From assembly GCF_007846085.1 (NCBI RefSeq), contig NZ_VOEJ01000001.1:682001-746000 (forward strand): DNA of 64,000 nucleotides, read 5' to 3'. Position 1 is the first letter of the stretch. Each line of letters begins with the position of its first letter. This document shows positions 1,432-42,111 of the stretch, piece by piece. A program made the translations under genes and the position numbers. The DNA comes from Mucilaginibacter pallidiroseus. Its GTDB lineage: Bacteria; Bacteroidota; Bacteroidia; Sphingobacteriales; Sphingobacteriaceae. The notes below the pieces were generated by a model. That model did no database searches and was not told the DNA's origin. It was given only the letters and a program-made list of their open reading frames with translations.

Positions 1432-2603
1432 TAGTTGCCTTTTGGATAAGCCTTTTTATTGCTTTTTACACATACGCCGGTTACGGCATTTTGCTATATT
1501 TTATAATAAAGATAAAGCGAGCAGTTAAGGGTAAGCCTGCGTTGCCACCGATTATTGACGACCAACTGCCAACGTGTACCCTTGTTGTGGCTGCCTATAA
1601 CGAGGAGGCTTATATGCACCAAAAGATCGCCAATTGCCTGCAGTTGGACTACCCGCAAGGTAAGCTGGATTTCATATTTGTTACCGATGGTTCTACCGAC
1701 GGTACCCCCTCTGTTATTGCGCAACACCCCGAAATTAAGCTATTACACAAACCGGAGCGAGCCGGTAAAATCGCCGCGGTACACCGCGCTATGGAGAATG
1801 TAGATACTGAAGTTGTTGTATTTACAGATGCTAACACTTTCTTGAATAAGGAGGCTATTACCCGCATTTGCAGGCATTATGCCGATAAGACTGTGGGCGC
1901 AGTTGCCGGCGAAAAACGTGTACAGGTTGACGAAAATGCCGATGCGAGTGCGGCAGGCGAAGGCTTTTACTGGAAATACGAATCGACACTAAAGAAATGG
2001 GATTCGGAACTTTACTCGGTTGTTGGTGCCGCCGGAGAATTATTTAGCGTAAGGCGTAATCTGTACCAGGATGTGCCTGCCAATACCGTTCTTGATGACT
2101 TTATGATTTCCATGCTGATAGCTGATAAAGGTTACAGAATTATTTACGAGCCCGACGCTTATGCGCTTGAAACAGCATCAGAAAACGTGACTGAAGAGCT
2201 GAAACGTAAAATACGGATAGCGGCCGGCGGTATCCAATCAATAATATGGCTAAAGAGCTTGCTGCTGCCGTTCAAATATCCTATTCTCTCCTTCCAGTAC
2301 ATTAGTCACCGTGTATTACGATGGACGGTTACGCCCTTTTTTATGATACTGGCCTTTGTGTTGAATATTTTAATTATTGCGCAAAGCTTTAGCTGGCTAT
2401 ACATGCTGTTGCTTGTTGGGCAAGTTATGTTTTACGCATCGGCATTTTTAGGATTAATTTTAGAGAAACGGCAGCTCCGTGTTAAAGTACTTTTTATCCC
2501 CTACTACTTCTGCGTAATGAATTACGCTGTACTGGCCGGTATAATCCGCTACTTCACCAAAAAACAAAGTGCAGTCTGGGAAAAAGCACAACGTAGGGCT
2601 TGA
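1428..2603 (+). CDS. Membrane-bound processive-type family 2 glycosyltransferase
   Basis: A 391-residue protein with one N-terminal membrane segment (about 2-24), a cytoplasmic GT2 domain and two to three C-terminal membrane segments (about 300-380). Motifs are VVAAYNEEAY, VTDGSTDGT, FTDANTF (the DxD-like metal site), VAGEKRV, DDFMISM (catalytic-base region) and RKIRIAAGGIQSI in the place of the QxxRW motif. The layout is that of polysaccharide or poly-N-acetylglucosamine-type synthases. It overlaps the preceding transferase by four bases, so the pair probably acts on one surface or exopolysaccharide. The product sugar is unknown. Confidence 0.86.
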   Translation: MIVAFWISLFIAFYTYAGYGILLYFIIKIKRAVKGKPALPPIIDDQLPTCTLVVAAYNEEAYMHQKIANCLQLDYPQGKLDFIFVTDGSTDGTPSVIAQHPEIKLLHKPERAGKIAAVHRAMENVDTEVVVFTDANTFLNKEAITRICRHYADKTVGAVAGEKRVQVDENADASAAGEGFYWKYESTLKKWDSELYSVVGAAGELFSVRRNLYQDVPANTVLDDFMISMLIADKGYRIIYEPDAYALETASENVTEELKRKIRIAAGGIQSIIWLKSLLLPFKYPILSFQYISHRVLRWTVTPFFMILAFVLNILIIAQSFSWLYMLLLVGQVMFYASAFLGLILEKRQLRVKVLFIPYYFCVMNYAVLAGIIRYFTKKQSAVWEKAQRRA

Positions 2604-2664
2604 TATAGTTGTTGGTCTTAGTAGTTGGGTAAATATTTAAACTTACGGCCATCTAAAAACGATC

Positions 2665-4833
2665 CTACCTCAGTATCGTCTCCGTAATTTTCGCGATATC
2701 TACCGTTATTTTATTGATGAAGCCGAGCTGTTCTTTCATTAGCATTTCATCAGGTGTCGGTTGCGCTTCGGTAAATGGCGGCTTTACAGGTTCCGTTTTT
2801 GGCGGTTCAATTTGCGGGCCGTCTGTACTTACAATCACATCGTCAATTTTGGCAACAGTATCTTTTAATACCGCGATACTGCGCTTTACTAGTTTCTGCG
2901 TATCGGCATGTGGTTGTTGCGGCATATTGCGCACGAGTGCAGATGCCATGTTAGCCGTGTAAGATGATAAGATGTGGTTAAGCACCACAAATTTGTGTAT
3001 GTCCTTGATGTGATATTGCTTGCTTTTGGGCTCGGATGTCATTCGCTCGAACGTAGCCGATAGGTTGGCCGAGTTTACAAAAACGTCTTTTCTGGCAAGC
3101 TTATATTCAGTAACACTTACCAGCCTGCCTGCTACGCTTTCAGCGATTTTTTGCAGGTAATTTATATTTGCGGTTAGCACCGCCTTCATGTTTTGTTGCA
3201 CCTGCTCAAACTCCCAGGTAGGGAAAATCACGTAGCTGGCTACAAATGCAATGGTTGAGCCGATGATGGTATCAATGATACGCTCCTGTGCCACATTTAA
3301 TAAGCCTACCCCAAGGAACTTGAACAAAATAAGTACGTAAGGGGTCATGAATATTACCGACACAACGTAGTTTAGCCGTAAAAAACTATATGTGCCTAAC
3401 ATAAATACGATCAGGAAAACAAACTGAACATCTTTATTAGGTATAAAGGTTAAGATGAATATACCTATAAGCCCCCCGCCTATTGTTCCAATTAAACGTT
3501 GATAATTACGCTGTTTGGACAAGCTAAAACCAGGTTTAAGAATTACGATGATGGTAAGCAGTACCCAATAACTGTGTCCGCCAAGCGCAAAGTTTTTAGC
3601 GGTTATAAATCCAATAAGGCAAACAAGCGCCACGCGCAAAGCATGTTTAAACGTGGCCGACTTTAATGTGAAGTTATCCCAAAAAATGTGCGGTGCATAG
3701 TCCTGGTGGCTTACAAATTTGGAGTATTCAACTTCGGGACTATCTGTATCTAAGAGCCCGTCGGACGCTTTTGAATGGTAGTATTTGTAAAGGTTGTTGA
3801 TGCTTTTACCCAATTCGCGGAGGTTAATCAGGATTTTTTTTAGCACGATGTTGCTTGCAACAGTTTGGTCATTACCTATCGCGTCAATCTTGGTTTTAAG
3901 TTTTTCAAGGCCTGGTTCAATATTGCTTAACTTTTCAGGGCGGGCGTTAGCCAACACGGCGTATCCAATATTATCAAGATCTTCGGCAAGCAGGTCAAGA
4001 AAATCTGCTATATCTGTAATGATCCCCGTCCCTACAAAGCGTTTGCGAATTTCCGAATAGTCGTAATGCGTAGCCATTATTTGCTCAAACATATCAACCA
4101 GGTCAATAAACGTGAGCACCAAAATCCTGCTGGCCCAAGTCGACTCCTTTACCACCAACCTGCTTTTAAATAATAGCTCGCGTACGGCATCCTGGTGGTT
4201 GCTTACCTGTATCTGCTGTAAAACCAACTTGCGGTAGTTTTCATCCAGATCTACATTTGGACGGTAAAAATCTGCCTTGATGCGTAAAAACCTGGCAATG
4301 TCTGTAACGTTCTCGGCAAGCGTTTGCTGGGCAGCGCGATAGGGCCTTATCCCAAAAAAAACAAGGCTAAAAAGCATATACCATACGCCGCCGGCAAAAA
4401 TGGTTAAAGAGTAGGGTATTATTTCGTTTCCCGGCTCATCTTTACCAAGCATAAATATCATTATCAATAACGACGCTGTGCCTACCGCTGCTGCCCTGTT
4501 TCCATAAACCACGAACATCGAAAACAGGAACGAAAATACAGTGATCTCCAACCCTAACGCATACACATTCATCCTGGCATAGCCCGTAATAATTGCTACC
4601 AGCAATACGCATATCGAGCCAATGGCCATACTGTTACGCTTGTGTGTTGCCGGCCCCGGACTATCAATTGTACAAATACATAATGCACCCAATGATAGTG
4701 TTAGGCCAAGGTCGAAATGGCCCAATTGCATCATACCCAAAGCAGGTATCAGTATTCCGGCAGAAATACGCAACCCGTCAGAAAAGTATTGACTAAAAAA
4801 GAAGCTTTTTATTTCGCGCTGCCGGTTACTCAT
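2665..4833 (-). CDS. FUSC family inner-membrane protein (YccS/YhfK-like)
   Basis: A 722-residue protein with the FUSC architecture: an N-terminal block of about six membrane helices (residues ~20-170), a long cytoplasmic helical region, a second membrane block (about 395-530; HSYWVLLTIIVILKPGFSLS is the characteristic segment) and a cytoplasmic C-terminus with a Pro/Thr-rich linker near residue 670. YccS/YhfK and aromatic-acid efflux pumps (AaeB) share this fold. The substrate is unknown; efflux or envelope homeostasis is inferred from the family. It stands alone, convergent with the glycosyltransferases and divergent from ppc. Confidence 0.85.
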   Translation of the reverse strand: MSNRQREIKSFFFSQYFSDGLRISAGILIPALGMMQLGHFDLGLTLSLGALCICTIDSPGPATHKRNSMAIGSICVLLVAIITGYARMNVYALGLEITVFSFLFSMFVVYGNRAAAVGTASLLIMIFMLGKDEPGNEIIPYSLTIFAGGVWYMLFSLVFFGIRPYRAAQQTLAENVTDIARFLRIKADFYRPNVDLDENYRKLVLQQIQVSNHQDAVRELLFKSRLVVKESTWASRILVLTFIDLVDMFEQIMATHYDYSEIRKRFVGTGIITDIADFLDLLAEDLDNIGYAVLANARPEKLSNIEPGLEKLKTKIDAIGNDQTVASNIVLKKILINLRELGKSINNLYKYYHSKASDGLLDTDSPEVEYSKFVSHQDYAPHIFWDNFTLKSATFKHALRVALVCLIGFITAKNFALGGHSYWVLLTIIVILKPGFSLSKQRNYQRLIGTIGGGLIGIFILTFIPNKDVQFVFLIVFMLGTYSFLRLNYVVSVIFMTPYVLILFKFLGVGLLNVAQERIIDTIIGSTIAFVASYVIFPTWEFEQVQQNMKAVLTANINYLQKIAESVAGRLVSVTEYKLARKDVFVNSANLSATFERMTSEPKSKQYHIKDIHKFVVLNHILSSYTANMASALVRNMPQQPHADTQKLVKRSIAVLKDTVAKIDDVIVSTDGPQIEPPKTEPVKPPFTEAQPTPDEMLMKEQLGFINKITVDIAKITETILR

Positions 4834-5033: not shown

Positions 5034-7607
5034 ATGCCATCTACTCAAAGGGCCATCCAGCGCGAAACCATTTTTAACAACGAGGTTGTAAAACGTTTCG
5101 AGTTGTATAACAGTTTGTTCCAAACGTTGCCTTTTTACCAGGTTAAAAATACAGGTATCCTGTTGCCGTTTTTTAGCTCACACTGCGAAGAAGAAGTACA
5201 AAAAGGCGCCTCGCCGGATGCCATTATCCAATCATTTTTTAGTAAATACGTACCTGATATTGATAACCGCGAGCAAATAAACCGTCTGTTCAGATTTATC
5301 CAATACATTGAGCGTCAAGTAGTTTTGTTTGACGCCATTGAAGATTCATCTTTTGGCAAGTTTGAACGGGCCGATGATACTGGCACACTGCAAAACATGG
5401 TGCAGCAAGCATCTATTGATGATGAAACGCGCCAAAACATAAGCAAGCAGCTAAAAGACTTCTCGCTAAGGCTTGTGCTCACCGCCCACCCTACGCAATT
5501 TTACCCTGGTGCGGTTTTAGGTATCATGACAGACTTGATTGACGCACTAAAAACCAACGATATCAATAGCATCGACGGTTTATTACAGCAATTGGGCAAA
5601 ACGCCTTTCTTTAATAAAAAGTCGCCAACCCCGGTTGATGAGGCGGTTAGCCTGGTATGGTTCCTTGAAAATGTTTTCTACCATGCATTGTCGGGCATAC
5701 AGGATAAACTGGAAACTGAATTTGACCTTGACGGCAGCCACCAATTGCTTGAACTTGGCTTTTGGCCCGGAGGCGACAGGGACGGAAACCCGAACGTAAA
5801 TACCGAAACTACCCGCCAGGTATCATCCCTGCTGAGGCAATATATATTCAGATGCTACTATCGCGACTTTAGGGAAGTAAAGCGCCGTATCACATTCAGG
5901 GGTTTCGACGAAACCATAAGCAATCTGGAACAGTTGCTTTATAACAATGCCTTTAACAAGCAAACGGATGCTAGGGACTTGCAGCCGGAAATTTTGGCCA
6001 CGCTGCAAGCCATGCGCGACCAGCTGAAAACTGAGCACGACGGGCTGTTTATCAAAGTAGTTGAAAACCTGATACAAAAGGTTCAACTGTTTGGTTCATA
6101 CTTTGCAACGTTAGATATACGGCAGGATAGCCGTGTACTGCGCGATGTATTTAAATATTGCACCGCCAAAATATATACTGGTGTACCTAAAGAATACCAG
6201 GAAATGAATGAGGAACAGAAGCTGAAAAGCCTGCCCTTCAATCAAGCCGACTTTAAGTGCCCGGAAACAGCCGACGACATGACCCGTGATACGCTGGACA
6301 CGATACGGCTGATGAAACAAATACAACACAGCAACGGCCAAAAAGGTTGCCAGCGTTTTATCATAAGTAACTGCCAAAAAGCCTCAGACATATTACAGCT
6401 TATCGACCTCTTTTTATGGAGCGGCTGGGAAAAAAACAAGCTTACGGTTGATTTTATGCCGTTGTTTGAAACCGTTAATGACCTTAAGGCCGCGGCCGAG
6501 GTTATGGAGACGTTATACAACCACCCCTTTTATAAATCGCACCTTGTGCAGCGCGGCAACAAACAAACAATCATGCTTGGCTTCTCGGATAGCACAAAGG
6601 ATGGTGGCTATCTAATGGCCAACTGGTCCATATACAAAGCCAAAGTTGAGCTTACTGCCATGGCGCGCAAATATGGCATTGCCCTGGCGTTTTTCGATGG
6701 CAGAGGTGGCCCACCGGCACGTGGCGGCGGCAAAACACATCGTTTTTATGCTTCAATGGGTAAGGAAATAGCGAATGAACATATCCAGCTGACTATACAG
6801 GGGCAAACCGTAAGTTCGCAATATGGATCAGTAGAGACTGCGCGCTTTAACACCGGGCAATTGATAAACGCCGGTGTTATATCTGCCCTGCATCCAAATC
6901 ATAAGGATTTACTTGACGAAAAACATAAGGCTCTGATTGCAGAAATGGCGGAAGCAAGCCATGAGTTGTTCCTGGCTTTACGGGAAGACCCATTGTTTGT
7001 GGAGTATCTGGAAAAATTTAGTCCGCTTAAGTTGCTGTCGCAGATCAATATCAGCAGCCGCCCAACAAAGCGTAACGCCGATGCCAAGTTAAGGCTGGAA
7101 GATTTAAGAGCAATTAGCTTCGTAACATCATGGAGCCAACTAAAGCAAAGCATCCCCGGTTTCTACGGCGTAGGTACAGCACTTAAGAAAATGAAAGATG
7201 CAGGCAACTGGCAAGAAGTAAAGGAACTTTACCATGCATCTGGATTCTTTAAAACCATGTTGGACAATTGCATGATGTCTATGTCCAAATCGGATTTCAG
7301 GATTACGGCGTACATGGAGAAGGACAAGAAATTTGGGAAATTTTGGAAAGGGCTTAAAGCTGAATTTGAACTTACCAGAAGCCTGTTGCTTGAACTTACC
7401 GACAGCAAAGTGTTAATGGAAGAATACCCTATTGAAAGCCGCTCTATCGCGATACGTGAAAAGATAATATTACCATTGGTTGTAATACAGCACTATGCCT
7501 TAAACCAACTTGACACCGTAAAAGATAGCGAACTGGAGGGTATCTATAAAAAATTGGTTATACGTACGGTTTATGGCATCATCAACGCCGGCCGTAATCT
7601 TGTATAA
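5034..7607 (+). CDS. ppc: Phosphoenolpyruvate carboxylase
   Basis: Carboxylates phosphoenolpyruvate with bicarbonate to oxaloacetate, replenishing the TCA cycle in the cytosol. The 857-residue chain carries the family signatures: LTAHPTQ with the catalytic His near 152, PGGDRDGNPNV near 250, GFSDSTKDGGYL near 515, and the mobile loop GRGGPPARGGG near 556. I chose the ATG at 5034 rather than the in-frame TTG at 4998 because the sequence before it does not look conserved. The C-terminus ends INAGRNLV, resembling the usual Asn-containing end. Single-gene unit with a strong terminator at 7628. Confidence 0.95.
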   Translation: MPSTQRAIQRETIFNNEVVKRFELYNSLFQTLPFYQVKNTGILLPFFSSHCEEEVQKGASPDAIIQSFFSKYVPDIDNREQINRLFRFIQYIERQVVLFDAIEDSSFGKFERADDTGTLQNMVQQASIDDETRQNISKQLKDFSLRLVLTAHPTQFYPGAVLGIMTDLIDALKTNDINSIDGLLQQLGKTPFFNKKSPTPVDEAVSLVWFLENVFYHALSGIQDKLETEFDLDGSHQLLELGFWPGGDRDGNPNVNTETTRQVSSLLRQYIFRCYYRDFREVKRRITFRGFDETISNLEQLLYNNAFNKQTDARDLQPEILATLQAMRDQLKTEHDGLFIKVVENLIQKVQLFGSYFATLDIRQDSRVLRDVFKYCTAKIYTGVPKEYQEMNEEQKLKSLPFNQADFKCPETADDMTRDTLDTIRLMKQIQHSNGQKGCQRFIISNCQKASDILQLIDLFLWSGWEKNKLTVDFMPLFETVNDLKAAAEVMETLYNHPFYKSHLVQRGNKQTIMLGFSDSTKDGGYLMANWSIYKAKVELTAMARKYGIALAFFDGRGGPPARGGGKTHRFYASMGKEIANEHIQLTIQGQTVSSQYGSVETARFNTGQLINAGVISALHPNHKDLLDEKHKALIAEMAEASHELFLALREDPLFVEYLEKFSPLKLLSQINISSRPTKRNADAKLRLEDLRAISFVTSWSQLKQSIPGFYGVGTALKKMKDAGNWQEVKELYHASGFFKTMLDNCMMSMSKSDFRITAYMEKDKKFGKFWKGLKAEFELTRSLLLELTDSKVLMEEYPIESRSIAIREKIILPLVVIQHYALNQLDTVKDSELEGIYKKLVIRTVYGIINAGRNLV

Positions 7608-30881: not shown

Positions 30882-31047
30882 AACTACCTCTTTTCATAAT
30901 TAAAGATACACATTTAGTGATATAAAACAAAAGCATTCGCTCGTTTTTGAGCCTTTGTCCATTAGGTAGTCCTGAACGTGGCAGATAGCTCAGAAACTAA
31001 AATACTTTTTTAACGATTATTTGTCGAAGTTTGTACAAAGGATTATC

Positions 31048-31956
31048 ATGAAACCGCTAATAAAATATCGGGGCGGCAAGTCCAAGGAATTGCCACACCT
31101 CGTCAAACATATACCGGACTTTTCCGGACGTTATATTGAGCCGTTTTTCGGCGGAGGGGCATTGTATTTTTACCTCGAACCCCAAAAAGCGATAATCAAT
31201 GACATTAATAGTAGACTGATGGCATTTTACTCGATGGTCAAATCGGACTTTAAGACGTTGTCTGCCGAATTAGAATCAATCGAGCGGATTTACACAGATA
31301 ATCGAAAACGGTATGAGCAATTAAAAGCTAAAAGCCCGGATAACCGTGTAAATGATGAGAATGAGGCTTTCTACTATGAGCTGAGGGATATGTATAACGA
31401 GCTAATAGATAAAAAATATTCCGATGCAGCATTGTATTTCTACATTAACAAAACAGCCTATTCTGGAATGATCCGTCATAATGCCAAAGGTGAATTTAAC
31501 GTACCATATGGACGCTATGCAAACTTTAATACATCTTTAATTACCGAAGCTCATCAAAAATTACTCGGAACTACAGAAATTTTTAATAGCGATTACAAGA
31601 AGATATTTCAACTCGCTAAGAAAGATGATTTTATGTTCTTGGACCCGCCATATGATTGCATTTTTTCAGATTACGGAAACATAGAGCATAAAGACGGCTT
31701 TACAGAAAAAAACCATATTGAATTGGCCTCAGCTTACCGTAAGCTAAAATGTAAAGCACTGATGGTAATTGGCCGTACACCATTAACCGAAAAACTGTAT
31801 GGCGACTTAATCATCGATGAATATGAGAAAGCTTATGCAGTCAACATTCGTAATCGCTTTAAGGCTTCAGCTTCCCACATCCTGTTGGCCAATTACAAAA
31901 GCAGCAGCGAAATGCGTTATTTAAATCCTAAACCTCAAATCGAATTGGCTTCTTAA
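31048..31956 (+). CDS. DNA adenine methyltransferase, Dam/D12 class
   Basis: A 302-residue N6-adenine methyltransferase. The N-terminal SAM site is PLIKYRGGKSKELPHLV with EPFFGGGALYFYL, and the catalytic motif is LDPPYD near residue 205; this order defines the alpha/Dam class that usually methylates GATC. The ATG at 31048 is used because family members begin right there; a TTG at 31021 would add nine residues. The AlwI-type endonuclease gene starts one base after the stop, so the two form a restriction-modification operon. GATC specificity is inferred from the class and the partner. Confidence 0.9.
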   Translation: MKPLIKYRGGKSKELPHLVKHIPDFSGRYIEPFFGGGALYFYLEPQKAIINDINSRLMAFYSMVKSDFKTLSAELESIERIYTDNRKRYEQLKAKSPDNRVNDENEAFYYELRDMYNELIDKKYSDAALYFYINKTAYSGMIRHNAKGEFNVPYGRYANFNTSLITEAHQKLLGTTEIFNSDYKKIFQLAKKDDFMFLDPPYDCIFSDYGNIEHKDGFTEKNHIELASAYRKLKCKALMVIGRTPLTEKLYGDLIIDEYEKAYAVNIRNRFKASASHILLANYKSSSEMRYLNPKPQIELAS

Positions 31957-31957
31957 T

Positions 31958-33643
31958 ATGGCTAGGATCGATAGTAAAGTAATCTTTCTAACCACTTCCC
32001 CCAGGACGCCATCTAAAATGATTCCCGAGATACAGCTTTTGAGCGAGCATTTCTCCGGAGTTCCCTGGAATACTGACAATCAAAGGGCGTTCATGGATTT
32101 GCTGAAAGAAGAAAACTTCTTCAGCGGGGAAGGTGCTAATGACCCTGCTTTCAGCGCACGTGACCGGATAAATCGTGGTCCTAAATCCTTGGGTTTTGTA
32201 ATCTTATCGCCAGTAATCACCTTAACTCCTGCGGGACAGGAGCTCATAAATGCGGCCCGAAAAGAAGAAATATTTCTCAGACAGTTATTGAAATTTCAAG
32301 TACCATCTCCCTTCCACCGGCCAACAGTTAATTCTGCTGAGTTCTGGGTTAAACCATACCTAGAAATATTCCGTTTAATCCGTCATTTTGGTTCGCTGAA
32401 ATTTGATGAGCTGGTTATTTTTGGTTTGCAGTTGGTTGACTATAGGCAGTTTGAACAAATTGTTTCGAAAATTGACGCTTTTAGGGTAGCCAAGGCACAG
32501 AATGAAGGTAACTATCGCCGCTTCAAAGCTGGATACCTCGATGCGGAACTCCGCTTAATATACGAGAACGATATCCTTGCTGGCAATACGAGGACACGAG
32601 AAACTCATGATGCTTCTGTAGCTAAATTCTTAAAAACTAAAGCAAGTAATATGCGTGATTACGCAGATGCCTGCGTTCGTTATCTTAGAGCAACTGGTTT
32701 GGTCAATATATCACATTTGGGAAAATCAGTATCCATCGTTCCTGAAAAGATTCCGGAAGTTGATTATTTTTTAGCGAATACGGACCGTGACCCGATCTTT
32801 ACCGACAATGAAGCCAGTTATACCACTTATTTAGGTAATCCGCAATTACCCGTGCTCTTAACAGATAACAGGGAATTACTGTTGCGAAGACTGGCTGCAG
32901 AGTTCCCTGAACTATTGATCCCGTCAGGAGTTAACCTACCGGAACTAAAAGAGCTTTTGTCCAATGCCCGAGAATCACGAAAGGAACAGTTAATTAGCGA
33001 ACAAGTATCGGCCATAAAAGATTACCGGCTTTTTGATGATATTAATACTACTTTTTCACAAATATTGGATAATGATTTATACGATACGCCTTTAATGCTT
33101 GAATGGAATACTTGGCGAGCGATGACTATGCTTGATGGAGGCAATATCAAAGCAAATTTAAAGTTTGACGACTTCGGGCAGCCCATGTCAACCGCACAAG
33201 GCAACATGGCTGATATCCAATGTGATTACGAAGATTTCGGTTTAACCGTCGAAGTAACAATGCAAAGCGGACAGCGCCAGTATGAGACTGAAGGTGAATC
33301 AGTAACTCGGCACTTAGCTAAATATAAACGGGAAACTAACAAGCCTGCATATTGCCTTTTCATTGCTCCTACAATCAATGAATCGGTGATTGCACATTTT
33401 TATGGGCTTCACCGATTAAATATTGCATATTATGGCGGAACTTCGACCATTGTACCTTTACCATTGCGGGTGTTTCTGAAAATGGTTGAGGATTCACATA
33501 ATGCAGATTACGTGCCCGAACCCCGACATATTCTACGATTTTTTGAATATTCAAATGAGCTGGCGTCTGCAACGAACAGTGAGGTAGAATGGTACAATGG
33601 CGTTATGGAAGCAGCGTTGAATTGGCTTTTTCAAGAGAGATAG
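31958..33643 (+). CDS. AlwI family type II restriction endonuclease
   Basis: A 561-residue endonuclease expected to cut unmethylated DNA outside an asymmetric site; AlwI itself recognises GGATC. The family start is visible (SKVIFLTTSPRTPSKMIPEI). A likely PD-(D/E)xK-like core lies near residue 415-440 (DIQCDYEDFGLTVEVTMQSG followed by HLAKYKRE), the block that is strongly conserved among AlwI/MlyI/PleI-type enzymes. It sits directly behind a Dam-class methylase; GATC methylation would modify both strands of a GGATC site, so one methylase suffices for protection. The exact recognition site is an inference. Confidence 0.85.
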   Translation: MARIDSKVIFLTTSPRTPSKMIPEIQLLSEHFSGVPWNTDNQRAFMDLLKEENFFSGEGANDPAFSARDRINRGPKSLGFVILSPVITLTPAGQELINAARKEEIFLRQLLKFQVPSPFHRPTVNSAEFWVKPYLEIFRLIRHFGSLKFDELVIFGLQLVDYRQFEQIVSKIDAFRVAKAQNEGNYRRFKAGYLDAELRLIYENDILAGNTRTRETHDASVAKFLKTKASNMRDYADACVRYLRATGLVNISHLGKSVSIVPEKIPEVDYFLANTDRDPIFTDNEASYTTYLGNPQLPVLLTDNRELLLRRLAAEFPELLIPSGVNLPELKELLSNARESRKEQLISEQVSAIKDYRLFDDINTTFSQILDNDLYDTPLMLEWNTWRAMTMLDGGNIKANLKFDDFGQPMSTAQGNMADIQCDYEDFGLTVEVTMQSGQRQYETEGESVTRHLAKYKRETNKPAYCLFIAPTINESVIAHFYGLHRLNIAYYGGTSTIVPLPLRVFLKMVEDSHNADYVPEPRHILRFFEYSNELASATNSEVEWYNGVMEAALNWLFQER

Positions 33644-34158: not shown

Positions 34159-35097
34159 TTAAAATTCGTCTATTATTTCAACTACGGCTTTTGCGTAGGG
34201 GCTTTTGTTAATCTGAATTTGCAATACGCGCCTGAAATTATTTAACTCCCGCTGCTCAATTATTTCCTGCATCGCTGTTCTTCCGGTGAAACCTTTCTGA
34301 AGTACCATTTCTATGGCATCATCAATACCCGTAAGTGTGCTTGGCATATCGTAAATAACACCGTGCGGCGCATTATTAACGTCTAAATGGAACCAAGCAG
34401 GTTGGCTTCTATATTTCGTTTTAATCTTGTTCTCGCCAAATCCATGTCTTTTATAAAAAAGAGAGGCTTTTTGCCGGATATAGCCGCTTAAATCATTTGG
34501 TATAACAACTTTCAATTTAAAATCGGTAAATATGGCGCCTTCATATTCTAAATTTTCAGCATCATGGATGCTTTCAACCATACCCTCAATAAAGTTCTTA
34601 TAATAGCCAATTGCCAACGCAGTAGTTGGATAAAGGCTCAAATGGCCTAAGCGATAATGTTCATTAATTTTATGGATGAACTCGTTACAGGCGTTGTGAA
34701 TAGATGTATCATCAGTCGCAATAAAACGGGGCATATAAATACCGCTAAAATCTGTTGGAAGTTTGATACCCTTTTCAACTAGTAAAAAGGACTTGTCTTT
34801 ACCTAGTGCACCAAGATAAAGCGCCATCTCCAGGATAACATTGTCCCGCGGCTCGATCACAATTTTATCGTCAACTGTAAGTGTCAGATCATCAGCAGTT
34901 GCAACGAATACTCCGAAATCAAAAAATTTGACCATGCGAAGCAAGTTATCGAAAGTGCTGGTGTTAACCTCCCATACACCGTCGTCTTTCCAAAGATGAC
35001 AATCGCCAACAATAGAAAGGCAATTTTTTACCTTTTCGGCGATACTGTAACCGCCAGTGGAAGAACCTATAAATATTTGGGGTTTTAAATCATTCAT
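34159..35097 (-). CDS. TIR-STING effector of CBASS (Cap12-like)
   Basis: A 312-residue two-domain cell-suicide effector. Residues 1-145 form a TIR-like NAD-cleaving domain: QIFIGSSTGGYSIAEKVKN at the start, LWKDDGVW, and RDNVILEMALYLG where Glu90 fits the catalytic Glu. Residues ~153-312 match the STING ligand-binding fold: TTALAIGYYKNFIEGM (the dimer helix), FKLKVVIPNDL, YDMPSTLTGI and KGFTGRTAMQEIIEQRELNN. In Sphingobacterium faecium such a protein is activated by cyclic di-GMP from a CdnE and destroys NAD+. It starts 2 bp after a CdnE-like gene. No membrane segment. Ligand specificity is inferred from the family. Confidence 0.88.
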   Translation of the reverse strand: MNDLKPQIFIGSSTGGYSIAEKVKNCLSIVGDCHLWKDDGVWEVNTSTFDNLLRMVKFFDFGVFVATADDLTLTVDDKIVIEPRDNVILEMALYLGALGKDKSFLLVEKGIKLPTDFSGIYMPRFIATDDTSIHNACNEFIHKINEHYRLGHLSLYPTTALAIGYYKNFIEGMVESIHDAENLEYEGAIFTDFKLKVVIPNDLSGYIRQKASLFYKRHGFGENKIKTKYRSQPAWFHLDVNNAPHGVIYDMPSTLTGIDDAIEMVLQKGFTGRTAMQEIIEQRELNNFRRVLQIQINKSPYAKAVVEIIDEF

Positions 35098-35099
35098 AA

Positions 35100-36125
35100 T
35101 TAATAGCTTAAAAGTGTCCGTTGAAGTGTGTGGCTTTTATATAAGTCTTTTGATGCATCTTCTATGAGAGTATCAAGATCACCTTTGAGTAAAATCAGTT
35201 CGGGAACAGTGTTGTCGTCATAAAGTGGTTTTTCAACTCCGTTAGGACTTGATATCGATTTTCGATAGGTTGGGTTATCAATAAGTTTTCCCATTTGCTC
35301 GGAAACAACCCTGGCAATCCTAATCTCATCTCCAATAGTGTAGGTCAGAGGGGTATTATCGATAGCGTATACTATCGAATTTAACTGAAAGCTTTTAAGT
35401 ACCTTCAATTCAACGTCCGAGTTAGCCCGGAGATTTTTTAATAATCTAACTCCCTTTCTTAGGCCATCATTAGTAGTATCTCCCTTTACATTTACGTTAT
35501 GGATCGTAGCAAAAGGGAAATCCCGATGTTTGGTTTTCTTTTTAAAACTATACAGGTACACGCCGCGATAGAATTCATCTCTTAATTCCTGATATTTATC
35601 TGAATTGTACCAGTAAGCAAATACAATATCTACTTTGCGGTTTAGATGCTTGTTTTCAATGGAGATGCATTTGTCGCCGCTATCGTCAACGGTATCATAC
35701 TGAAATTTCATGATAGCGGTAGCCTGCTTTCTTAGCTCCTCAATATCTGCATCGGGATCTGATTCCGTATATACATTACGGGTCGAGGTTTGAGGGTAAA
35801 AATATTTATCAATAATCGTAAGCAAATCAAAATCACTATGTACCCTTATGTTCGTGTTGGTTCTAACCGAACCTTGTGTTCTATAAGCCCTGTCAAAATG
35901 TACTTTAAGCCCTCTCTCAAGATGGCTTTGAACATTTTCAGCGGCTTGAATAGTTTTGGCGTTATATTTCGTACCTATAGGTTTCATCGATTCAAATAGG
36001 TACTTAATGTCTTGTGGGATGTCTGAAGCACTGAATGATTTCGTTAACGCGGATTCGTTCAACCCCGGATCAAATCGCCTACTTTGAAGATTGGATAGTC
36101 GTCTGTTATAATCTAGTACTGCCAT
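35100..36125 (-). CDS. CD-NTase, CdnE-like (cyclic dinucleotide synthase)
   Basis: A 341-residue nucleotidyltransferase that makes a cyclic dinucleotide signal in CBASS. The Pol-beta core is QGSVRTNTNIRVHSDFDLL with Gly85-Ser86 and Asp98-x-Asp100, and the third acidic residue is probably Asp166 in RKVDIVFAYW. DGLRKGVRLLKNL matches the helix after the active site of CdnE proteins. CdnE enzymes encoded next to STING make cyclic di-GMP, so that product is inferred. The TIR-STING gene follows 2 bp later and the E2-like gene ends 18 bp before it. The C-terminus (TLQRTLLSY) has no glycine-rich tail. Confidence 0.88.
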   Translation of the reverse strand: MAVLDYNRRLSNLQSRRFDPGLNESALTKSFSASDIPQDIKYLFESMKPIGTKYNAKTIQAAENVQSHLERGLKVHFDRAYRTQGSVRTNTNIRVHSDFDLLTIIDKYFYPQTSTRNVYTESDPDADIEELRKQATAIMKFQYDTVDDSGDKCISIENKHLNRKVDIVFAYWYNSDKYQELRDEFYRGVYLYSFKKKTKHRDFPFATIHNVNVKGDTTNDGLRKGVRLLKNLRANSDVELKVLKSFQLNSIVYAIDNTPLTYTIGDEIRIARVVSEQMGKLIDNPTYRKSISSPNGVEKPLYDDNTVPELILLKGDLDTLIEDASKDLYKSHTLQRTLLSY

Positions 36126-36143
36126 AACTGTATTATTAATAAT

Positions 36144-36572
36144 TTAAATTCTTCTATGTTCAACGTAAGGATGCTCCCATTTACCTGTGATTAAATAGAG
36201 TTCATAAAACAGGAACCATTTATGCGTCCATGGTATGATCGTATTAAACAAACGCGAATTGTCGTTCCAGCTATGATCCCTCGGATAATAAAGGCATAGA
36301 CGGTTATCATCAGCATACATGTGTATTTCTTCATGATAGCAAATTTGTGGCTCCGTTACGTAAACCTTCGGGGTTTTAGCAGGATCATACACAATCTTAT
36401 AATTATAAGTGATCGAGTAATTTGTCGGCTTGCAATAACCGTGAACAAAAAGAACCCCATTTATAATTTTTGACGTTAAAAAATCATAATGCTTTTTTAA
36501 TAACGCGGCCTCAACGCGCAGTAAATGCGTTCCTTGAAGTCGGCGCTGTGGTATTAAAATATTAGCTGCCAT
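36144..36572 (-). CDS. Stand-alone E2-like ubiquitin-conjugating protein of type II-short CBASS
   Basis: A 142-residue protein resembling the bacterial E2 (UBC-fold) proteins of type II-short CBASS. The conserved end is visible: HMYADDNRLCLYYPRDHSW, then NTIIPWTHKWFLFYELYLITGKW and a terminal EHRR. Cys93 in LCLYYP is the likely active-site cysteine. No E1 or JAB-peptidase gene is nearby, as expected for the short type, in which the E2 acts on the synthase. Its start overlaps the upstream CD-NTase gene by 11 bp, tying it to that synthase. Assignment is from motif memory rather than a profile search. Confidence 0.75.
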   Translation of the reverse strand: MAANILIPQRRLQGTHLLRVEAALLKKHYDFLTSKIINGVLFVHGYCKPTNYSITYNYKIVYDPAKTPKVYVTEPQICYHEEIHMYADDNRLCLYYPRDHSWNDNSRLFNTIIPWTHKWFLFYELYLITGKWEHPYVEHRRI

Positions 36573-37560
36573 AATTCCGGTTATATTGTCCTGCTACGCC
36601 GCTGGTATTGCTAAATTGCCCCGAACTAGTTAAACGAGAGGTCACACTAGCAGCGGCATAAAGGGCTTTCATTTTAGCATCCGTGTCCTCGTCCACACCA
36701 TCAGGAAAACGCTGTCCAAGGTATTTTTGCCAAATGCGAGACGCCTTCAACTGGTTAGGTTTATCAAGTGCTTTCTTGGCATCATCAATAAATTTATCCA
36801 ATTCAGCTCTGAATTTGGCTTTTTGATCTTCAGTAAGCTTTGCAGTCAGATCGTCATATGGCTCCACCGGCGATATACAAGAAACCCGGTAGTAATTTGC
36901 GGAACGAATGGCCTTCAACAAATTGTACAGGCATTCGTCGTCCCTATCCTCAATTCTTACATAATTATTGGTTGCCCAGACGGTGAGTGCGATACCACTT
37001 GGCATTTTAGAGGAGCATTTCGAAGCCCATCCTTTTAAGTATTTTACCATTCGGACGAGTTGGCCATCAGCGTCCTTTCGCTTTTCAAACCAGGTAATTA
37101 TGTGCCATGGATCGTCTTTTATCCAACCATTATCCTTCACTGCCATGTACGCATAATCTTCGTCGGTTACCTCGTAATAAACCGGGAAATCAATATTGTA
37201 GGCGCAGCGATAAAAAACGCGTATACACTTTTTTCTGTGCTCTGCTCCATCGGCGGTATGATCATTTACTGCCTCATAGACATACCGTTGTACAGTAGTT
37301 GCGCTGACATCAGGTTTACGAGGAAGATAAACACCACGGTCCGCATCGTAGGTGCCATTTTCCTTAATGATAATGGTACGCATATTTTTGGATGCTGAAC
37401 CCTGTGTATAAAACGTAGGCGTCATCCCTAGCCTTTCTTCTAATTTGGTAATAATCTTCTTTTCAAGCGTCGTCCTCGAGTTAATCATCTGCTGCATCTG
37501 CTCGTTCGATGGCGTGATGCTTTTGCCGTAATCGCAAAAGAGTCTGTTACAATTTGCCAT
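36562..37560 (-). CDS. Second CD-NTase (DncV/CdnB-like clade)
   Basis: A 332-residue nucleotidyltransferase, first gene of the operon. The core is FYTQGSASKNMRT (Gly54-Ser55) followed by TYDADRGVYL with Asp72-x-Asp74; Asp124 in YNIDFPVYYEV is the probable third metal ligand. LVRMVKYLKGWASK matches the helix typical of DncV-like synthases, and KYLGQRFPDGV near the end is also characteristic. The last 30 residues are Ser/Gly/Asn-rich and unstructured (ending YNRNYGS), a fitting substrate tail for the overlapping E2 gene. The clade and product are unknown. It is clearly different from the CdnE-like gene two positions downstream. Confidence 0.82.
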   Translation of the reverse strand: MANCNRLFCDYGKSITPSNEQMQQMINSRTTLEKKIITKLEERLGMTPTFYTQGSASKNMRTIIIKENGTYDADRGVYLPRKPDVSATTVQRYVYEAVNDHTADGAEHRKKCIRVFYRCAYNIDFPVYYEVTDEDYAYMAVKDNGWIKDDPWHIITWFEKRKDADGQLVRMVKYLKGWASKCSSKMPSGIALTVWATNNYVRIEDRDDECLYNLLKAIRSANYYRVSCISPVEPYDDLTAKLTEDQKAKFRAELDKFIDDAKKALDKPNQLKASRIWQKYLGQRFPDGVDEDTDAKMKALYAAASVTSRLTSSGQFSNTSGVAGQYNRNYGS

Positions 37561-37669
37561 AGTCTATATTAATTTAGAGTATTAAATGATACAATAATAA
37601 AGGCGCAGAATACAACCTATTTGTGTTTTGCTTTTTTTTGTATTTTTATAAATATTTAATATCTGAACC
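37561..37669. promoter_or_regulatory. Divergent promoter region between the CBASS operon and its WYL regulator
   Basis: A 109-bp AT-rich gap. GTATTAAATGATAC (37579-37592) is a short imperfect palindrome and ATTTA/TAAAT arms surround it; a WYL dimer could bind here. I could not assign clean -33/-7 elements. Confidence 0.4.
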
Positions 37670-38674
37670 TTGCCAGCCAATAAAGACCTCATGGCCCGTA
37701 TTCGGGTGATTAACGACTGTCTTTGCCACCGTACCAAGAAATACTGGTCAAAGCAGGATCTTGTGGATGCTATTTTAGAAGAAACTGATATTGATATTTC
37801 CACGAGCAGCATTAGTGGTGATATCGAAAAAATGAAGAACAGTCGTCAGCTCAGCTACTTTGCTCCGATTAAACACTCGAAATCACCGTTTGGCTATTAT
37901 TATACGGACCCCGACTATTCGATTGATAAACTGCCGCTTAATGCTGAAGACCTTAAAGCACTTAGATTAGCTGCATCGACACTTAATCAATATCGAAATA
38001 TTCCACTGCTCAACGCCTTTACCAATACTATAAACAAAATAGTCAAGTTCTCGAAACGGTCAGACCAGGGCGCTGTTTTAAATTTTATCGACTTCGAGCG
38101 GACCCCTTTTGCAAAGGGCGTGGAGTATATAGATACGATCATCGAAGCTATACAGGAAAAAAGATGTTTGCAAATCACCTACCAAAAATTCGGTCATTCG
38201 CCGGAGGTATATGACTTTCATCCTTATCTGTTAAAAGAATACCGGAACCGTTGGTATATTATTGGCAAGAATGAACAGAAAAGAGCTACAAGAACGTATG
38301 GGCTCGACAGAATCACTGCATTGGAAAAGTCAGATTGCCCTTTTCTAGATGAAGGATTAGTTGATAAAAGCTACCTCACGAATTGTATTGGCGTTGGAAC
38401 CGGAAACGGCCTGGTTGAAAGAGTAGTGTTAAAGTTTGTCGAGTCCGAAGGCCATTATTTACGAAGTCAGAAAATGCATCATTCACAGAATATTCTGAAG
38501 GACGATAAAGAGGGATTGATTATTACATTAAATGTTATCATCAACTTTGAATTGGTGGGCATTATTTTGAATTACGGCGCTCACGTCACTGTGTTGGAAC
38601 CGAAAAGCCTCGCTGAAAAGATTGTCGAAATCGCAAGCAACATTATTAACAATTATTCTGTAAACGCTAAATAG
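37670..38674 (+). CDS. WYL domain transcriptional regulator (CapW-like)
   Basis: A 334-residue regulator with an N-terminal winged helix (about 1-75; DLVDAILEETDIDISTSSIS is the recognition part), a central WYL domain (about 145-215, around KRCLQITYQKFGHSPEVYDF and RNRWYIIGKNEQ) and a C-terminal WCX-like domain. The start is probably TTG at 37670, because PANKDLMARIRVINDCL is the usual family beginning and an in-frame stop lies just before; ATG 37691 is the alternative. Divergent from the CBASS operon, as CapW is in several CBASS loci, where it represses until infection. Autorepression of the shared gap is likely. Confidence 0.82.
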   Translation: MPANKDLMARIRVINDCLCHRTKKYWSKQDLVDAILEETDIDISTSSISGDIEKMKNSRQLSYFAPIKHSKSPFGYYYTDPDYSIDKLPLNAEDLKALRLAASTLNQYRNIPLLNAFTNTINKIVKFSKRSDQGAVLNFIDFERTPFAKGVEYIDTIIEAIQEKRCLQITYQKFGHSPEVYDFHPYLLKEYRNRWYIIGKNEQKRATRTYGLDRITALEKSDCPFLDEGLVDKSYLTNCIGVGTGNGLVERVVLKFVESEGHYLRSQKMHHSQNILKDDKEGLIITLNVIINFELVGIILNYGAHVTVLEPKSLAEKIVEIASNIINNYSVNAK

Positions 38675-38718: not shown

Positions 38719-41700
38719 ATGAGAAAATCTGCCGGCTCTATCATTTTTTCCCCAAGTGACTTGATCACTTTCGTTGCTTCATCGTTTGCTTCGTGGATGG
38801 ACCGTTATTATTTGGAGAATAGGGATCTGGTAACGCCCGACGAGGAAAGTGAGGAAACCAAGCTTATTGCTGAAACCGGTGACATACATGAACAAGCGAT
38901 GCTGGCGGAGATGGAGGCTAAGGGAATACCTATTGCTAAAATTGAACGTAGCGATTTTGAAATAGCTGTTACTAACACTACAGCAGCCATAAAAAGTCGG
39001 GTGCCAATAGTTTTCCAGGCGGCGTTACAAAAAGATCAATTTGCTGGCTATGCGGATTTTTTAATTTTAAATGAAAGTGACGCCTACGAATTATGGGACA
39101 CGAAATTGGCGCGTTCGCCAAAACCTTATTATGCCGTACAATTGTGCTGCTATGCTGAAATGTATGCGGCTACAACAGGAGAGTCGATGCCGGAAAAGTT
39201 CGGTATTATTTTAGGGACTGGGCAAAGGGTCGTATTCCGCACCGAGGACTTTTATCATTACTACAAACGGGTAAAGAACAATTTCCTCGAGATGCAGGAA
39301 ACCTTTACCGATAACCTGAAAGATTGCCCGGAGCCTTTGGCATCAGCTGATCATGGCCGTTGGCAATCGCATGCAGATCGCTATTTCGCCAACAATGACC
39401 ACTTAGTTCAGGTAGCCGGGATTACAACGGGACAAATCAAAAAATTGGCAAAAGCAGGTATCGCTACGATGAGCCAGTTAGCTGAATTTACTGGTAGCGG
39501 TATTCATAAGTTAGCCAACGACACCTTAATTAAAATAGTTGCCCAAGCACGTTTGCAATGCGGTACAAAGGCGGACCGGCAAAAAGACTCAACGGCTGAT
39601 GCTCGTTACGAGTTGATCGCAAAGCCGGCAGAAGCCCTTGCTGCGTTTGGCTTGGAGTTACTTCCGCCTGCACACCCTGCCGATATTTTTTTTGATATGG
39701 AGGGATATCCGTTGACCATGGGCGGCCTCGAGTATCTTTTTGGCGCTACAACCAATGATTTTGAGTTTTTTGATTGGTGGGCGCATGACCGTGAAAGTGA
39801 AAAAGCTGCCTTTCAAGGCTTCATCGATTGGGTTTTTAAGAGATGGATCGAAAACCCTGGTATGCATATCTATCACTATGCAGCCTATGAGGAGAGTGCG
39901 TTAAGACGATTGAGCATACGGCATGATACCCGTCAGGAAGAAGTAGATGAATTATTACGTAATGACGTATTAGTTGACTTGTACAAGGTTGTTCGCCAGG
40001 GCATCCGAATCGGCGAAGCCAGCTATTCAATAAAGTCAATCGAATTATTATATAGGCCAAAGCGCACCACCGAAGTTGCAACAGCTGCCGGTTCGATCGT
40101 GCAGTATGCCCGGTGGATAGAAAGCGGGCAACCGAGGCAATGGCAGGAAAGCGATATTTTAAAAGCGATACGTGATTATAATGAAGATGACTGCCGGTCC
40201 ACAGTAGAATTGTTCCGGTGGTTGACCAAATTAGCAGCAGACAACGGTATAAACTATTTACCCAAAAAGAAGAAAGAGCGAGATGAAGAACCTACCGCAG
40301 CGTCACAGGAATTAGCCGAACGACTGCAAATCGCAGACCAGCTTCGAAACAAAAATGAGCCCATTGCTACAACATTAGGAGACCTGATTGATTTCCATCG
40401 TCGGGAACAAAAGCCAGTTTGGTGGCGAATGTTCGACCGAGCTGAGGCTGAAGCCGAAGAATTGAGTGATGATCCGGCATGCATTTACGGAGTTCAAGCG
40501 ATCGGTGCGCCCAAATCCGATAAACAGTCCCAAATTCAGGATTACACCTTTGAGGGTTTGCAGGAATGCAAAATGGAAGAAGGCAAACAGGTGATGTTTT
40601 GTAATGACCTTGATGCCAAATTCACGCTAATTGCAATTGACTCCAATTCCGGTCGCCTAAGTCTTAAAATTGGTAATAAAGCATTAAATGAAAAAATGAA
40701 TGGGCGGTTCCCATCCGCCGGTTCAATTATCCTTAGCGAATATGTACCTGCAAAGGAAATACAGGCAGCGCTCGCCAGTATTGGCCGGGATTATTTAGCA
40801 GGAATTATTCCGGGGTCAATTTCGGCTTTATTAACAAGAGCGACACCTGTGGCAGAACTGCAAAAAGCTGGAGAAGATACTGTTTCCGCAGCAACCCGGG
40901 TAAGCCAAGAGATGAGTGCGGGTTGCTTAGTCATACAGGGGCCGCCGGGGACAGGTAAAACTTTTACGGGTTCAAATATGATCGCCAGCCTGCTTGAAGC
41001 GGGTAAAAATGTTGGTGTAGCCTCGAATAGTCATAAGGCGGTAATCAACTTATTAATTGAATGTGGTAAAATCATACGGGCAAAGGGGCACTCCTTGGCG
41101 GGCCTGAAAGCCAGCGGAGAAAGTGAAGGCGAACTTTTCAGCGACAACCCACTTATGCGTTATGTGGGCTCAAACAAGGATGCGGCAAACCAATATCGTG
41201 GGGGTCTTATAGCTGGTACGGCCTGGTTATTTAGCAGGCCGGAACTGCAAAATAAACTGGACTTCTTATTTATCGACGAAGCTGGGCAGGTATCGCTTGC
41301 TAATGCCGTCGCTATGGCGCGCAGCGCTTCCAACTTGGTTTTGCTGGGCGATCAGATGCAGCTGGAGCAGCCGCTTCAGGGAAGTCATCCCGGTGATTCA
41401 GGAATGTCCGTATTACAATATGCGCTGAAAGATGAAAAATTAAGTCTAACAGACGCTCCTGTATTCCATGCCGTAGTACCGGCGGATTACGGATTGTTTT
41501 TGGGTCAATCGAGGAGGATGCATCCCTCGGTTTGTCGTTTCATTTCCGAAAGCGTTTACGAAAACCGGCTTGGATCTCACGAAAATTGTGAACGGCAAAA
41601 AATTGACACAGACCCTTTGGCTGAGGTATCTTTACCGGAGTGCGGCGTTGCATTTATCAATGTTGAACATGACGGTAATATCCAACAAAGTGACGAGGAA

Positions 41701-42111
41701 GCAGTAATGGTTAGCGCTATTTTTCGATCATTAATAGGCAAGAATTACACCGCGTCCGATGGAACTACTCGACAATTGGCTTTATCAGATTTTCTCTTTA
41801 TTTCACCGTACAATTCACAGGTGCGCACCTTGAAAGCAGTATTGCCGGAAGGAGCAAGAGTAGCCAGTGTGGATAAATTCCAAGGCCAAGAAGCGCCGGT
41901 ATGCGTTTTATCTATGTGTTCCAGTTACGGCGAGTACGGCTCCCGCGGCTTATCATTTATACTGGATAAGAACAGGGTTAACGTAGCGGTATCAAGAGCG
42001 CAATGCCTTGCAGTTGTCGTCGGAGATGCACGAATTGCCCAAACAAACGCGGGATCGCTAAACGAAATGCGTCTATTGAACTTGTACTGCAAACTCGCGT
42101 TTTCAGGGTAG
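38719..42111 (+). CDS. RecB-like nuclease, RNase H-like exonuclease and SF1 helicase fusion (TM0106 type)
   Basis: A 1130-residue protein with three enzymatic parts. Residues ~100-165 have a RecB-type PD-(D/E)xK core (GYADFLI, then YELWDTKLA and QLCCYAEMY). Residues ~315-475 have an RNase H-like exonuclease fold (DIFFDMEGYPL ... IYHYAAYEESALRRL ... YNEDDCRST). From ~735 follows an SF1 helicase: Walker A IQGPPGTGKT near 742, DEAGQ Walker B near 852, and DKFQGQE plus VAVSRAQ near the end. The layout matches TM0106-type proteins often seen in defence regions. It reads 44 bp after the WYL regulator gene and may be co-transcribed. Its target is unknown. Confidence 0.85.
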   Translation: MRKSAGSIIFSPSDLITFVASSFASWMDRYYLENRDLVTPDEESEETKLIAETGDIHEQAMLAEMEAKGIPIAKIERSDFEIAVTNTTAAIKSRVPIVFQAALQKDQFAGYADFLILNESDAYELWDTKLARSPKPYYAVQLCCYAEMYAATTGESMPEKFGIILGTGQRVVFRTEDFYHYYKRVKNNFLEMQETFTDNLKDCPEPLASADHGRWQSHADRYFANNDHLVQVAGITTGQIKKLAKAGIATMSQLAEFTGSGIHKLANDTLIKIVAQARLQCGTKADRQKDSTADARYELIAKPAEALAAFGLELLPPAHPADIFFDMEGYPLTMGGLEYLFGATTNDFEFFDWWAHDRESEKAAFQGFIDWVFKRWIENPGMHIYHYAAYEESALRRLSIRHDTRQEEVDELLRNDVLVDLYKVVRQGIRIGEASYSIKSIELLYRPKRTTEVATAAGSIVQYARWIESGQPRQWQESDILKAIRDYNEDDCRSTVELFRWLTKLAADNGINYLPKKKKERDEEPTAASQELAERLQIADQLRNKNEPIATTLGDLIDFHRREQKPVWWRMFDRAEAEAEELSDDPACIYGVQAIGAPKSDKQSQIQDYTFEGLQECKMEEGKQVMFCNDLDAKFTLIAIDSNSGRLSLKIGNKALNEKMNGRFPSAGSIILSEYVPAKEIQAALASIGRDYLAGIIPGSISALLTRATPVAELQKAGEDTVSAATRVSQEMSAGCLVIQGPPGTGKTFTGSNMIASLLEAGKNVGVASNSHKAVINLLIECGKIIRAKGHSLAGLKASGESEGELFSDNPLMRYVGSNKDAANQYRGGLIAGTAWLFSRPELQNKLDFLFIDEAGQVSLANAVAMARSASNLVLLGDQMQLEQPLQGSHPGDSGMSVLQYALKDEKLSLTDAPVFHAVVPADYGLFLGQSRRMHPSVCRFISESVYENRLGSHENCERQKIDTDPLAEVSLPECGVAFINVEHDGNIQQSDEEAVMVSAIFRSLIGKNYTASDGTTRQLALSDFLFISPYNSQVRTLKAVLPEGARVASVDKFQGQEAPVCVLSMCSSYGEYGSRGLSFILDKNRVNVAVSRAQCLAVVVGDARIAQTNAGSLNEMRLLNLYCKLAFSG

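Follow-up and report, generated by a model that had tools for sequence, protein, structure and literature searches.

A composite CBASS operon of Mucilaginibacter pallidiroseus with an E2-linked CdnB and a tail-less CdnE upstream of one TIR-STING

A 64,000-nt stretch of the Mucilaginibacter pallidiroseus genome (hereafter the window) carries an operon that, judged by sequence comparison, is a composite in which a complete CdnE-TIR-STING module is immediately preceded by a CdnB-E2 module, and we regard the locus as a variant of type II-short CBASS. The reading that we favor, and that seems to us reasonably probable, is that the E2 acts on the tail of the CdnB alone, after a cut behind Gly331, that the CdnE works independently of the E2, and that both synthases feed one TIR-STING effector; the cleavage, the conjugation, the common messenger, and the shared effector are each points that we infer.

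Results

Two synthases, an E2, and one TIR-STING in a single operon

On the minus strand, the operon reads CDN1, E2, CDN2, TIR-STING: a first CD-NTase of the CdnB/DncV-like kind (CDN1, 36562-37560, 332 residues), an E2-like enzyme (36144-36572, 142 residues), a second CD-NTase of the STING-associated CdnE type that lacks an E2 tail (CDN2, 35100-36125, 341 residues), and a TIR-STING effector (Cap12; 34159-35097, 312 residues). CDN1 and the E2 gene overlap by 11 nt (36562-36572), CDN2 follows the E2 gene on the same strand across a junction of 18 nt between the two modules (36126-36143), and only 2 nt separate CDN2 from TIR-STING. The preliminary description of this DNA had the genes, their coordinates, this overlap, and the residues that it named right throughout. 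No E1 or Cap3 gene lies near the E2, and a family-model search found no E1 or JAB genes among the operon neighbors (CdnE, TIR-STING, WYL, and others). Upstream of CDN1 lies a divergent gene for a WYL/WCX regulator on the plus strand (37670-38674; Pfam WYL at 5.2e-16 and WCX at 4.1e-12), possibly a CapW-like regulator of the operon; the 109-nt gap between the two (37559-37669) contains a palindrome at 37559-37582 that may be an operator. The operon lies in a defense neighborhood (31021-33643 and 38719-42111), with a Dam-type methylase and an AlwI-type endonuclease on one side and a RecB-like nuclease/SF1 helicase on the other.

CDN1 matches Pfam DncV-like_NTFase (9.8e-14) and scores 175.9 bits against the NCBIfam model NF041078, named "CBASS cGAMP synthase" (cut-off 150). 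Its nearest solved chain is 7ljo_A (3.2e-56), which we take to be a Bacteroides CdnB and from which we derive the label CdnB. The GS, DxD, and third Asp of a type II-short CD-NTase are all present in CDN1, and the corresponding residues, G54-S55, D72xD74, and D124, are invariant in a four-row alignment that includes the window. The E2 matches the PADLOC E2 models at 1.1e-46 and, by phmmer, the solved CBASS E2 8hsb_B at 4.4e-9; Pfam gave no family for it at an E value of 1 or lower. Its proposed catalytic residue, Cys93 (36294-36296, minus strand), already placed in an LCLYYP motif by the preliminary description, aligns over the Cys of 8hsb_B (RLCLYYP in the window, RLCLFLP in 8hsb_B) and is invariant in all nine aligned E2s, the window's being one of them. 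As in type II-short CBASS, the operon thus contains a single Cys-bearing E2 with no E1 domain and no Cap3. The AlphaFold2 models predicted from alignments of four rows were poor, with a mean pLDDT of 43.0 (E2) and 41.6 (CDN1).

The second synthase is of a different type. The nearest solved chains to CDN2 are 6wt9 (4.6e-34) and 6wt8 (1.6e-22), the latter entered as "STING-associated CdnE c-di-GMP synthase," and the protein ends in SHTLQRTLLSY, as had been noted for its last nine residues. The gene directly downstream encodes a protein with Pfam prok_STING (4e-37) and CAP12-PCTIR_TIR (2.6e-21) domains that scores 303 bits against the NCBIfam Cap12 model NF050172, below the cut-off of 450, and whose nearest solved chain is 9lmq (4.5e-71), presumably ElSTING. 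A CdnE directly upstream of a TIR-STING is the arrangement of type I CdnE-TIR-STING systems; operons of that type have no ancillary E2, and here one is encoded on the same strand, 18 nt upstream of the CdnE. Class I bacterial STINGs are described as contacting c-di-GMP through an RX(Y/F) lid and through Asp and Thr residues (Ko et al., PMC8748872). The window TIR-STING departs from this pattern: R230 and D250 are present, but the lid reads R230-S-Q232 (34402-34410, minus strand), with Gln at the third position, where near relatives have His, and Ser253 (of S253-T254) takes the place of the class I Thr (Asp +3), as in SfSTING. In plasmid records, a search with the window TIR-STING gave a single match at E values up to 1e-10, with 50% coverage.

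The operon joins two modules that otherwise occur apart

Of 400 genomes from the order that were searched with CDN1, 20 had a match at E up to 1e-30, the window's own included. The three closest loci (75, 58, and 63% identity) read CDN1, E2, TIR-STING, and a scan of genome contigs added two more of this layout, from Flavobacterium piscinae and from a Mucilaginibacter MAG. All five relatives (L023 from Mucilaginibacter segetis, L024, L025, L044 from F. piscinae, and L045) share the 11-nt CDN1-E2 overlap of the window, have the STING gene in the position of the window's junction, and lack a CdnE; their CDN1 proteins are about 57-74% and their E2s 49-70% identical to those of the window. In L025, the CDN1 orthologue is split by a frameshift (6260-7274), and the adjoining E2 and TIR-STING frames are open. 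Among more distant relatives of CDN1, 12 have a patatin-like or other neighbor together with a longer E2, and four have Cap2.

Searching for STING domains in 400 genomes, we obtained matches in 23, namely the window, three CdnB-E2 loci, 12 CdnE-TIR-STING loci, and seven loci in which the models gave no synthase (L078, L081, and L083-L087, left out of the synthase counts); a CDN2 search of 395 genomes of the phylum added three CdnE-TIR-STING loci. An E2 was found in none of the 15 CdnE-TIR-STING loci opened, three of which were searched with the short-E2 model only. The closest relatives of CDN2 are those of L071, L072, L074, and L075 (60-68% identity), with L151 at 62%.

When 18 TIR-STINGs were placed in a maximum-likelihood tree, that of the window grouped with the CdnE-linked L071, L072, and L074 (support 100/100), and the five CdnB-E2-linked STINGs, together with the synthase-less L081, formed a separate group (98/96). 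Pairwise identities agree: the window STING is 70-75% identical to those of L071, L072, and L074 but only 31-34% identical to the CdnB-E2-linked ones. As regards an effector of the CdnB-E2 module's own, the operon contains a TIR-STING, but one that groups with those of CdnE modules, and the tree and the identities point to a composite in which the CdnB-E2 module is set where its own TIR-STING would be expected. This arrangement was seen once: a search with the E2 in 149 genomes of the genus gave matches in 17, and no second composite was present among the loci opened from it. L043 (the same as L023), L116 (the same as L045), and L037 (a broken frame at a contig end) were left out of the counts. 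The TIR-STING of L081 (3277-5745), which belongs to the CdnB-E2 branch and has no synthase found beside it, has a caspase-domain protein two genes upstream (Peptidase_C14, 1e-14).

The preliminary description had proposed that the E2 modifies only the first synthase. The pairing of E2 and CDN1 is upheld by the comparison of loci (five CdnB-E2 relatives, and an E2 in 0 of 15 CdnE loci), and the assignment of the E2 to CDN1 rather than to the CdnE-like synthase is well supported at this level; the modification itself is the predicted part of that claim. That two systems are joined here, and that two synthases stand before a single effector, had gone unremarked in the description. An E2 serving the CdnE was considered and rejected, as 15 of 15 CdnE-TIR-STING loci were without an E2 found.

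A conserved C-terminal tip accompanies single-E2 cyclases

CDN1 ends SGVAGQYNRNYGS. The tail (residues 303-332; 36565-36654, minus strand) is rich in Ser, Gly, and Asn, as first described, with these residues making up 47% of the last 30 positions versus 13% elsewhere in the protein. The idea that such richness marks an E2 substrate did not hold up: the median Ser/Gly/Asn share of the last 30 residues is 0.30 (range 0.10-0.47) in 24 short-E2 cyclases and 0.25 in 12 long-E2 cyclases versus 0.23 (0.03-0.30) in 11 CdnE proteins, and we rejected it as an E2 signal because the ranges of E2-linked cyclases and CdnE overlap. What marks the putative substrate instead is a conserved tip, R328-N-Y-G331-S332 in CDN1 (36565-36579, minus strand). 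An alignment of four rows, one of them the window, shows no change in R328-N329-Y330 or in S320-G321-V322 (a further orthologue, L024, has SGT), and the tips read RNY-G-S in the window, RNY-G-G in L023, L024, and L025, RNY-G-D in L044, and RNY-A-D in L045, that is, the penultimate residue is Gly or Ala in CDN1 and all five orthologues. The 7ljo chain aligns through ...SHRNYG, up to residue 340 of 341.

In type II-long CBASS, the conjugated cyclase is reported to end in Gly or Ala, with Gly-to-Ala replacement partly tolerated and Gly-to-Ser replacement abolishing conjugation (PMC10097602). The penultimate Gly/Ala of CDN1 and its orthologues is thus one of the two residues that Cap2 accepts, and a terminal Ser would not be conjugable by the Cap2 rule, so that the tail would need to be trimmed to Gly331; we place the putative cut between Gly331 and Ser332. 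Use of the untrimmed CDN1 tail in the manner of Cap2 was rejected on the same Gly-to-Ser result.

We expressed the tip as a rule, [FYWH][GA]x(1-8)-stop, that is, Gly or Ala preceded by an aromatic residue or His and followed by one to eight residues before the stop. Among cyclases with a short E2 as neighbor, 30 of 32 match the rule (misses, L105 and L147), and among those with a long E2, 11 of 12 do so (miss, L031). It is matched by none of four cyclases beside Cap2, all of which end in Ala and have confirmed E1-E2 neighbors, and by 0/12 CdnE-TIR-STING cyclases; CDN2 and three further CdnE proteins do not match either, bringing the CdnE total to 0/16. The background rate is 52/562 among other stop-to-stop frames of at least 150 codons. 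The pattern thus separates E2-linked cyclases from the controls, many of the loci being near-copies or kin. When Ser is also allowed at the Gly/Ala place, the counts become 12/12 for long-E2 cyclases, 2/12 for CdnE, and 89/562 for the background. Three loci in which cyclase and E2 are fused and leave no free tail (L103, L104, and L144) were left out of the tail counts.

The rule was derived from the first set of loci, fixed in writing, and then tried on 15 held-out plasmid loci from five phyla, opened from among the 20 matches listed, with 51 more records beyond these. Of these loci, 14 could be scored, and 13 match (miss, L158). In L154 the cyclase is unannotated, and the upstream frame was scored and matches; L162 has no cyclase upstream and went unscored; and two hits from the same species as H13 (H14 and H15) were left out. 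It should be noted that L161, L165, and L166 are near-copies of one another, as are L156 and L160, and that the end of L168 is almost that of L122 in the first set. When viral contigs were scanned for peptide patterns of CDN1, no relative came up. Phage records contained one E2-like place, L169 (MT835483.1, 33307-41666), an unverified record without annotation that may be bacterial sequence; its upstream frame ends NTFYGKK and, lying outside the fixed test set, was not counted.

The tip reaches beyond CD-NTases and recurs beside tail-less synthases

We built a profile from six CdnB tails, using the last 30 residues of each, and searched 634 frame ends with it. Beyond the training rows, its best match (7e-8) is a Pycsar cyclase, L142, followed by the E2-linked cyclases L150, L121, and L105 (7e-4 to 0.009); the first other frame appears at E 0.22, with unrelated frames mixed in from there, and no CdnE appears up to E 10. 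The L142 protein is recognized by PADLOC as PycC (3.7e-120) and by Pfam as Guanylate_cyc, and its locus (2467-4506) consists of a PycTM effector gene, the pyrimidine-type cyclase, and then the E2. L115 has the same layout, a Pycsar system followed by a single E2; a literature search at title level recognized no E2 in Pycsar. Cyclase and E2 also occur in one frame, in L103 (565 residues), L104 (565 residues), and L144 (492 residues), and a free tail in these would need to be cut out, since cyclase and E2 are one protein. On these sequence grounds the E2 tag looks portable. A far-reaching version, which we put forward tentatively and with considerable doubt, is that single-E2 conjugation is a portable control module of antiphage signaling in which a tag of an aromatic residue, Gly, and a leaving peptide puts any CD-NTase or Pycsar cyclase under an ATP-free E2, and that operons like the present one combine the two kinds of synthase on purpose, the tagged one responding to conjugation and the untagged one serving either as an independent input or as the covalent acceptor of its partner.

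Close to a tailed cyclase and its E2, and on their strand, a further synthase without a tail is present in L121 (3986-6314, a Fibrella plasmid), L123 (2935-5267, a Runella plasmid), L143, and L146. In L121, L123, and L146 it is of the CdnB type, 284-290 residues long, ends where the tail would begin, and retains GS, DxD, and the third Asp; the one in L143 contains a SMODS domain (1.1e-25). With the window counted, at least 5/32 short-E2 loci have both a synthase with the tail and one without it on the same strand, and 27/32 have no second same-strand synthase by the models used. Two of the four tail-less synthases (L123 and L146) nevertheless fit the bare tip pattern where their core domain ends, and the pattern taken alone is therefore unspecific. 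L107 and L112 have a convergent SMODS-domain gene nearby. A literature search by titles and abstract beginnings recognized no case of two synthases in one CBASS operon.

Discussion

In the mechanism that we propose, the E2 would act on the CDN1 tail only: Cys93 would attack the bond after Gly331, with Ser332 as the leaving group in the role that the adenylate has when an E1 is at work, and a thioester between E2 and CDN1 would form without ATP or E1. The thioester-linked CdnB would then be passed to lysines and its activity raised, and CDN2, which carries no tag, would work independently of the E2. Because there is no tag on CDN2 and no E2 was found beside its kin, the two synthases should differ in control, as the preliminary description had supposed, and if both make the nucleotide read by the one TIR-STING, most likely a guanine dinucleotide, the operon would couple two differently controlled inputs to one NAD-destroying output. 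The mechanism agrees with the work of Yan et al. from 2024, in which the single E2 of S. marcescens reportedly processes the C-terminus of the cGAS, conjugates it to a cysteine, ligates it to lysine, and gives rise to poly-conjugates.

Whether the two synthases share a messenger can be approached through the receptor. The CdnB-E2-linked STINGs are nested beside the CdnE-linked L077 and L079 (100/100), with which they share an RDYD lid and a DIPxT stretch; in class I STINGs, Arg, Tyr, and Asp are described as reading c-di-GMP (PMC8748872), and the class I Thr (Asp +3) is Leu, Tyr, or Phe in both sets. Since the synthase types differ and the receptor is nearly the same, this argues, as far as sequence goes, that the CdnB branch to which the CDN1 relatives belong makes the same messenger as CdnE. 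Against a common messenger stands the lid of the window STING, R230-S-Q232, which lacks Tyr or Phe. The NCBIfam name of CDN1 and the behavior of two TIR-STINGs speak against it as well: SfSTING binds 3'3'-cGAMP (∼700 nM) without robust NADase activity (PMC9402430), and ElSTING is oligomerized by 3'3'-cGAMP and cleaves NAD only with c-di-GMP (PMC12421889). A cGAMP-making CDN1, as its score above the NF041078 cut-off would allow, might on this basis be a brake; its 3'3'-cGAMP would occupy TIR-STING inactively, the c-di-GMP of CDN2 would activate it, and the E2-controlled synthase would serve as a brake or as a decoy against phage removal of nucleotides. We consider such opposed signals quite unlikely, as CDN1 relatives are the sole synthase beside a TIR-STING with an RXY lid, a lid associated with c-di-GMP, and an antagonist alone would leave the TIR-STING of those relatives without an activator.

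Two further explanations bear on what the CdnB-E2 module does in its present place. It could be a stranded remnant that lost its own TIR-STING and has no effector, with CdnE-TIR-STING working alone: a CdnB-E2-type TIR-STING is indeed absent here, the STING present is of the CdnE lineage, and the composite turned up in a single genome when 149 from the genus were searched with the E2. Yet CDN1 and E2 are intact and overlapping and keep their catalytic positions, Cys93, and the tail tip, the junction is only 18 nt long, and CDN1 is unbroken here although its orthologue in L025 is frameshifted; we therefore think a remnant unlikely, if worth keeping in mind. Alternatively, the E2 might trim and charge the CDN1 tail and transfer it to a lysine of CDN2, a tail-less acceptor that would be switched by its partner. 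Conjugation of cyclase to cyclase has been proposed for a type II-short system, according to PMC11153139, and tailed and tail-less synthases stand together in one E2 operon in L121, L123, L143, L146, and the window; but CdnE does without an E2 in 15 of 15 loci, and most short-E2 loci (the 27 of 32 given above) have no second same-strand synthase, and to such hetero-conjugation we give little credence.

The locus can be set beside four known or related arrangements. The Serratia marcescens type II-short system of Yan et al. (2024), to which the 8hsb and 8ys- entries presumably belong, likewise has a DncV-like synthase beside a single E2 without E1 or Cap3, and the window E2 is homologous to 8hsb_B and has the same Cys motif; unlike that system, the window has a TIR-STING output, an extra tail-less CdnE, and a tip that reads RNYG-S. 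The CdnB-E2-TIR-STING operons (L023/L043, L024, L025, L044, and L045) resemble the window in the 11-nt overlap and the tail tip but have no CdnE, and their TIR-STING, directly after the E2, is 31-34% identical to the window's. With the type I CdnE-TIR-STING system (for example, ElCdnE-ElSTING, PMC12421889), the window shares the CDN2 and TIR-STING pair with its 2-nt gap, and the solved relatives 6wt8, 6wt9, and 9lmq; it differs in the CdnB and E2 that precede these in the operon and in its RSQ lid in place of RX(Y/F). In type II-long CBASS (Cap2 and Cap3), the cyclase C-terminus is the conjugated end as well (PMC10097602), but there the cyclase ends at Gly/Ala and the E1 part is needed.

If the favored reading is true, the locus would be a natural internal control, since one operon would hold two synthases before a single effector, one with the E2 tag and the other without it, so that the effect of E2 conjugation could be measured directly. 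It would also link STING to a CdnB-E2 input, provide a simple C-terminal rule that predicts the cyclase substrates of single E2s and their cut sites, and suggest how an E2 functions without an E1, and ubiquitin-like control would reach past CD-NTases through the presence of this tag on a Pycsar cyclase.

The window genome carries a second CBASS on another contig (L042, 5302-9559 in operon orientation), which consists of a patatin-like gene, a CdnB ending NAKSA, a Cap2 (E1-E2), and a JAB protein, the E1-E2 and JAB assignments being confirmed. Cross-talk between this system and a trimmed CDN1 that ends in Gly is conceivable.
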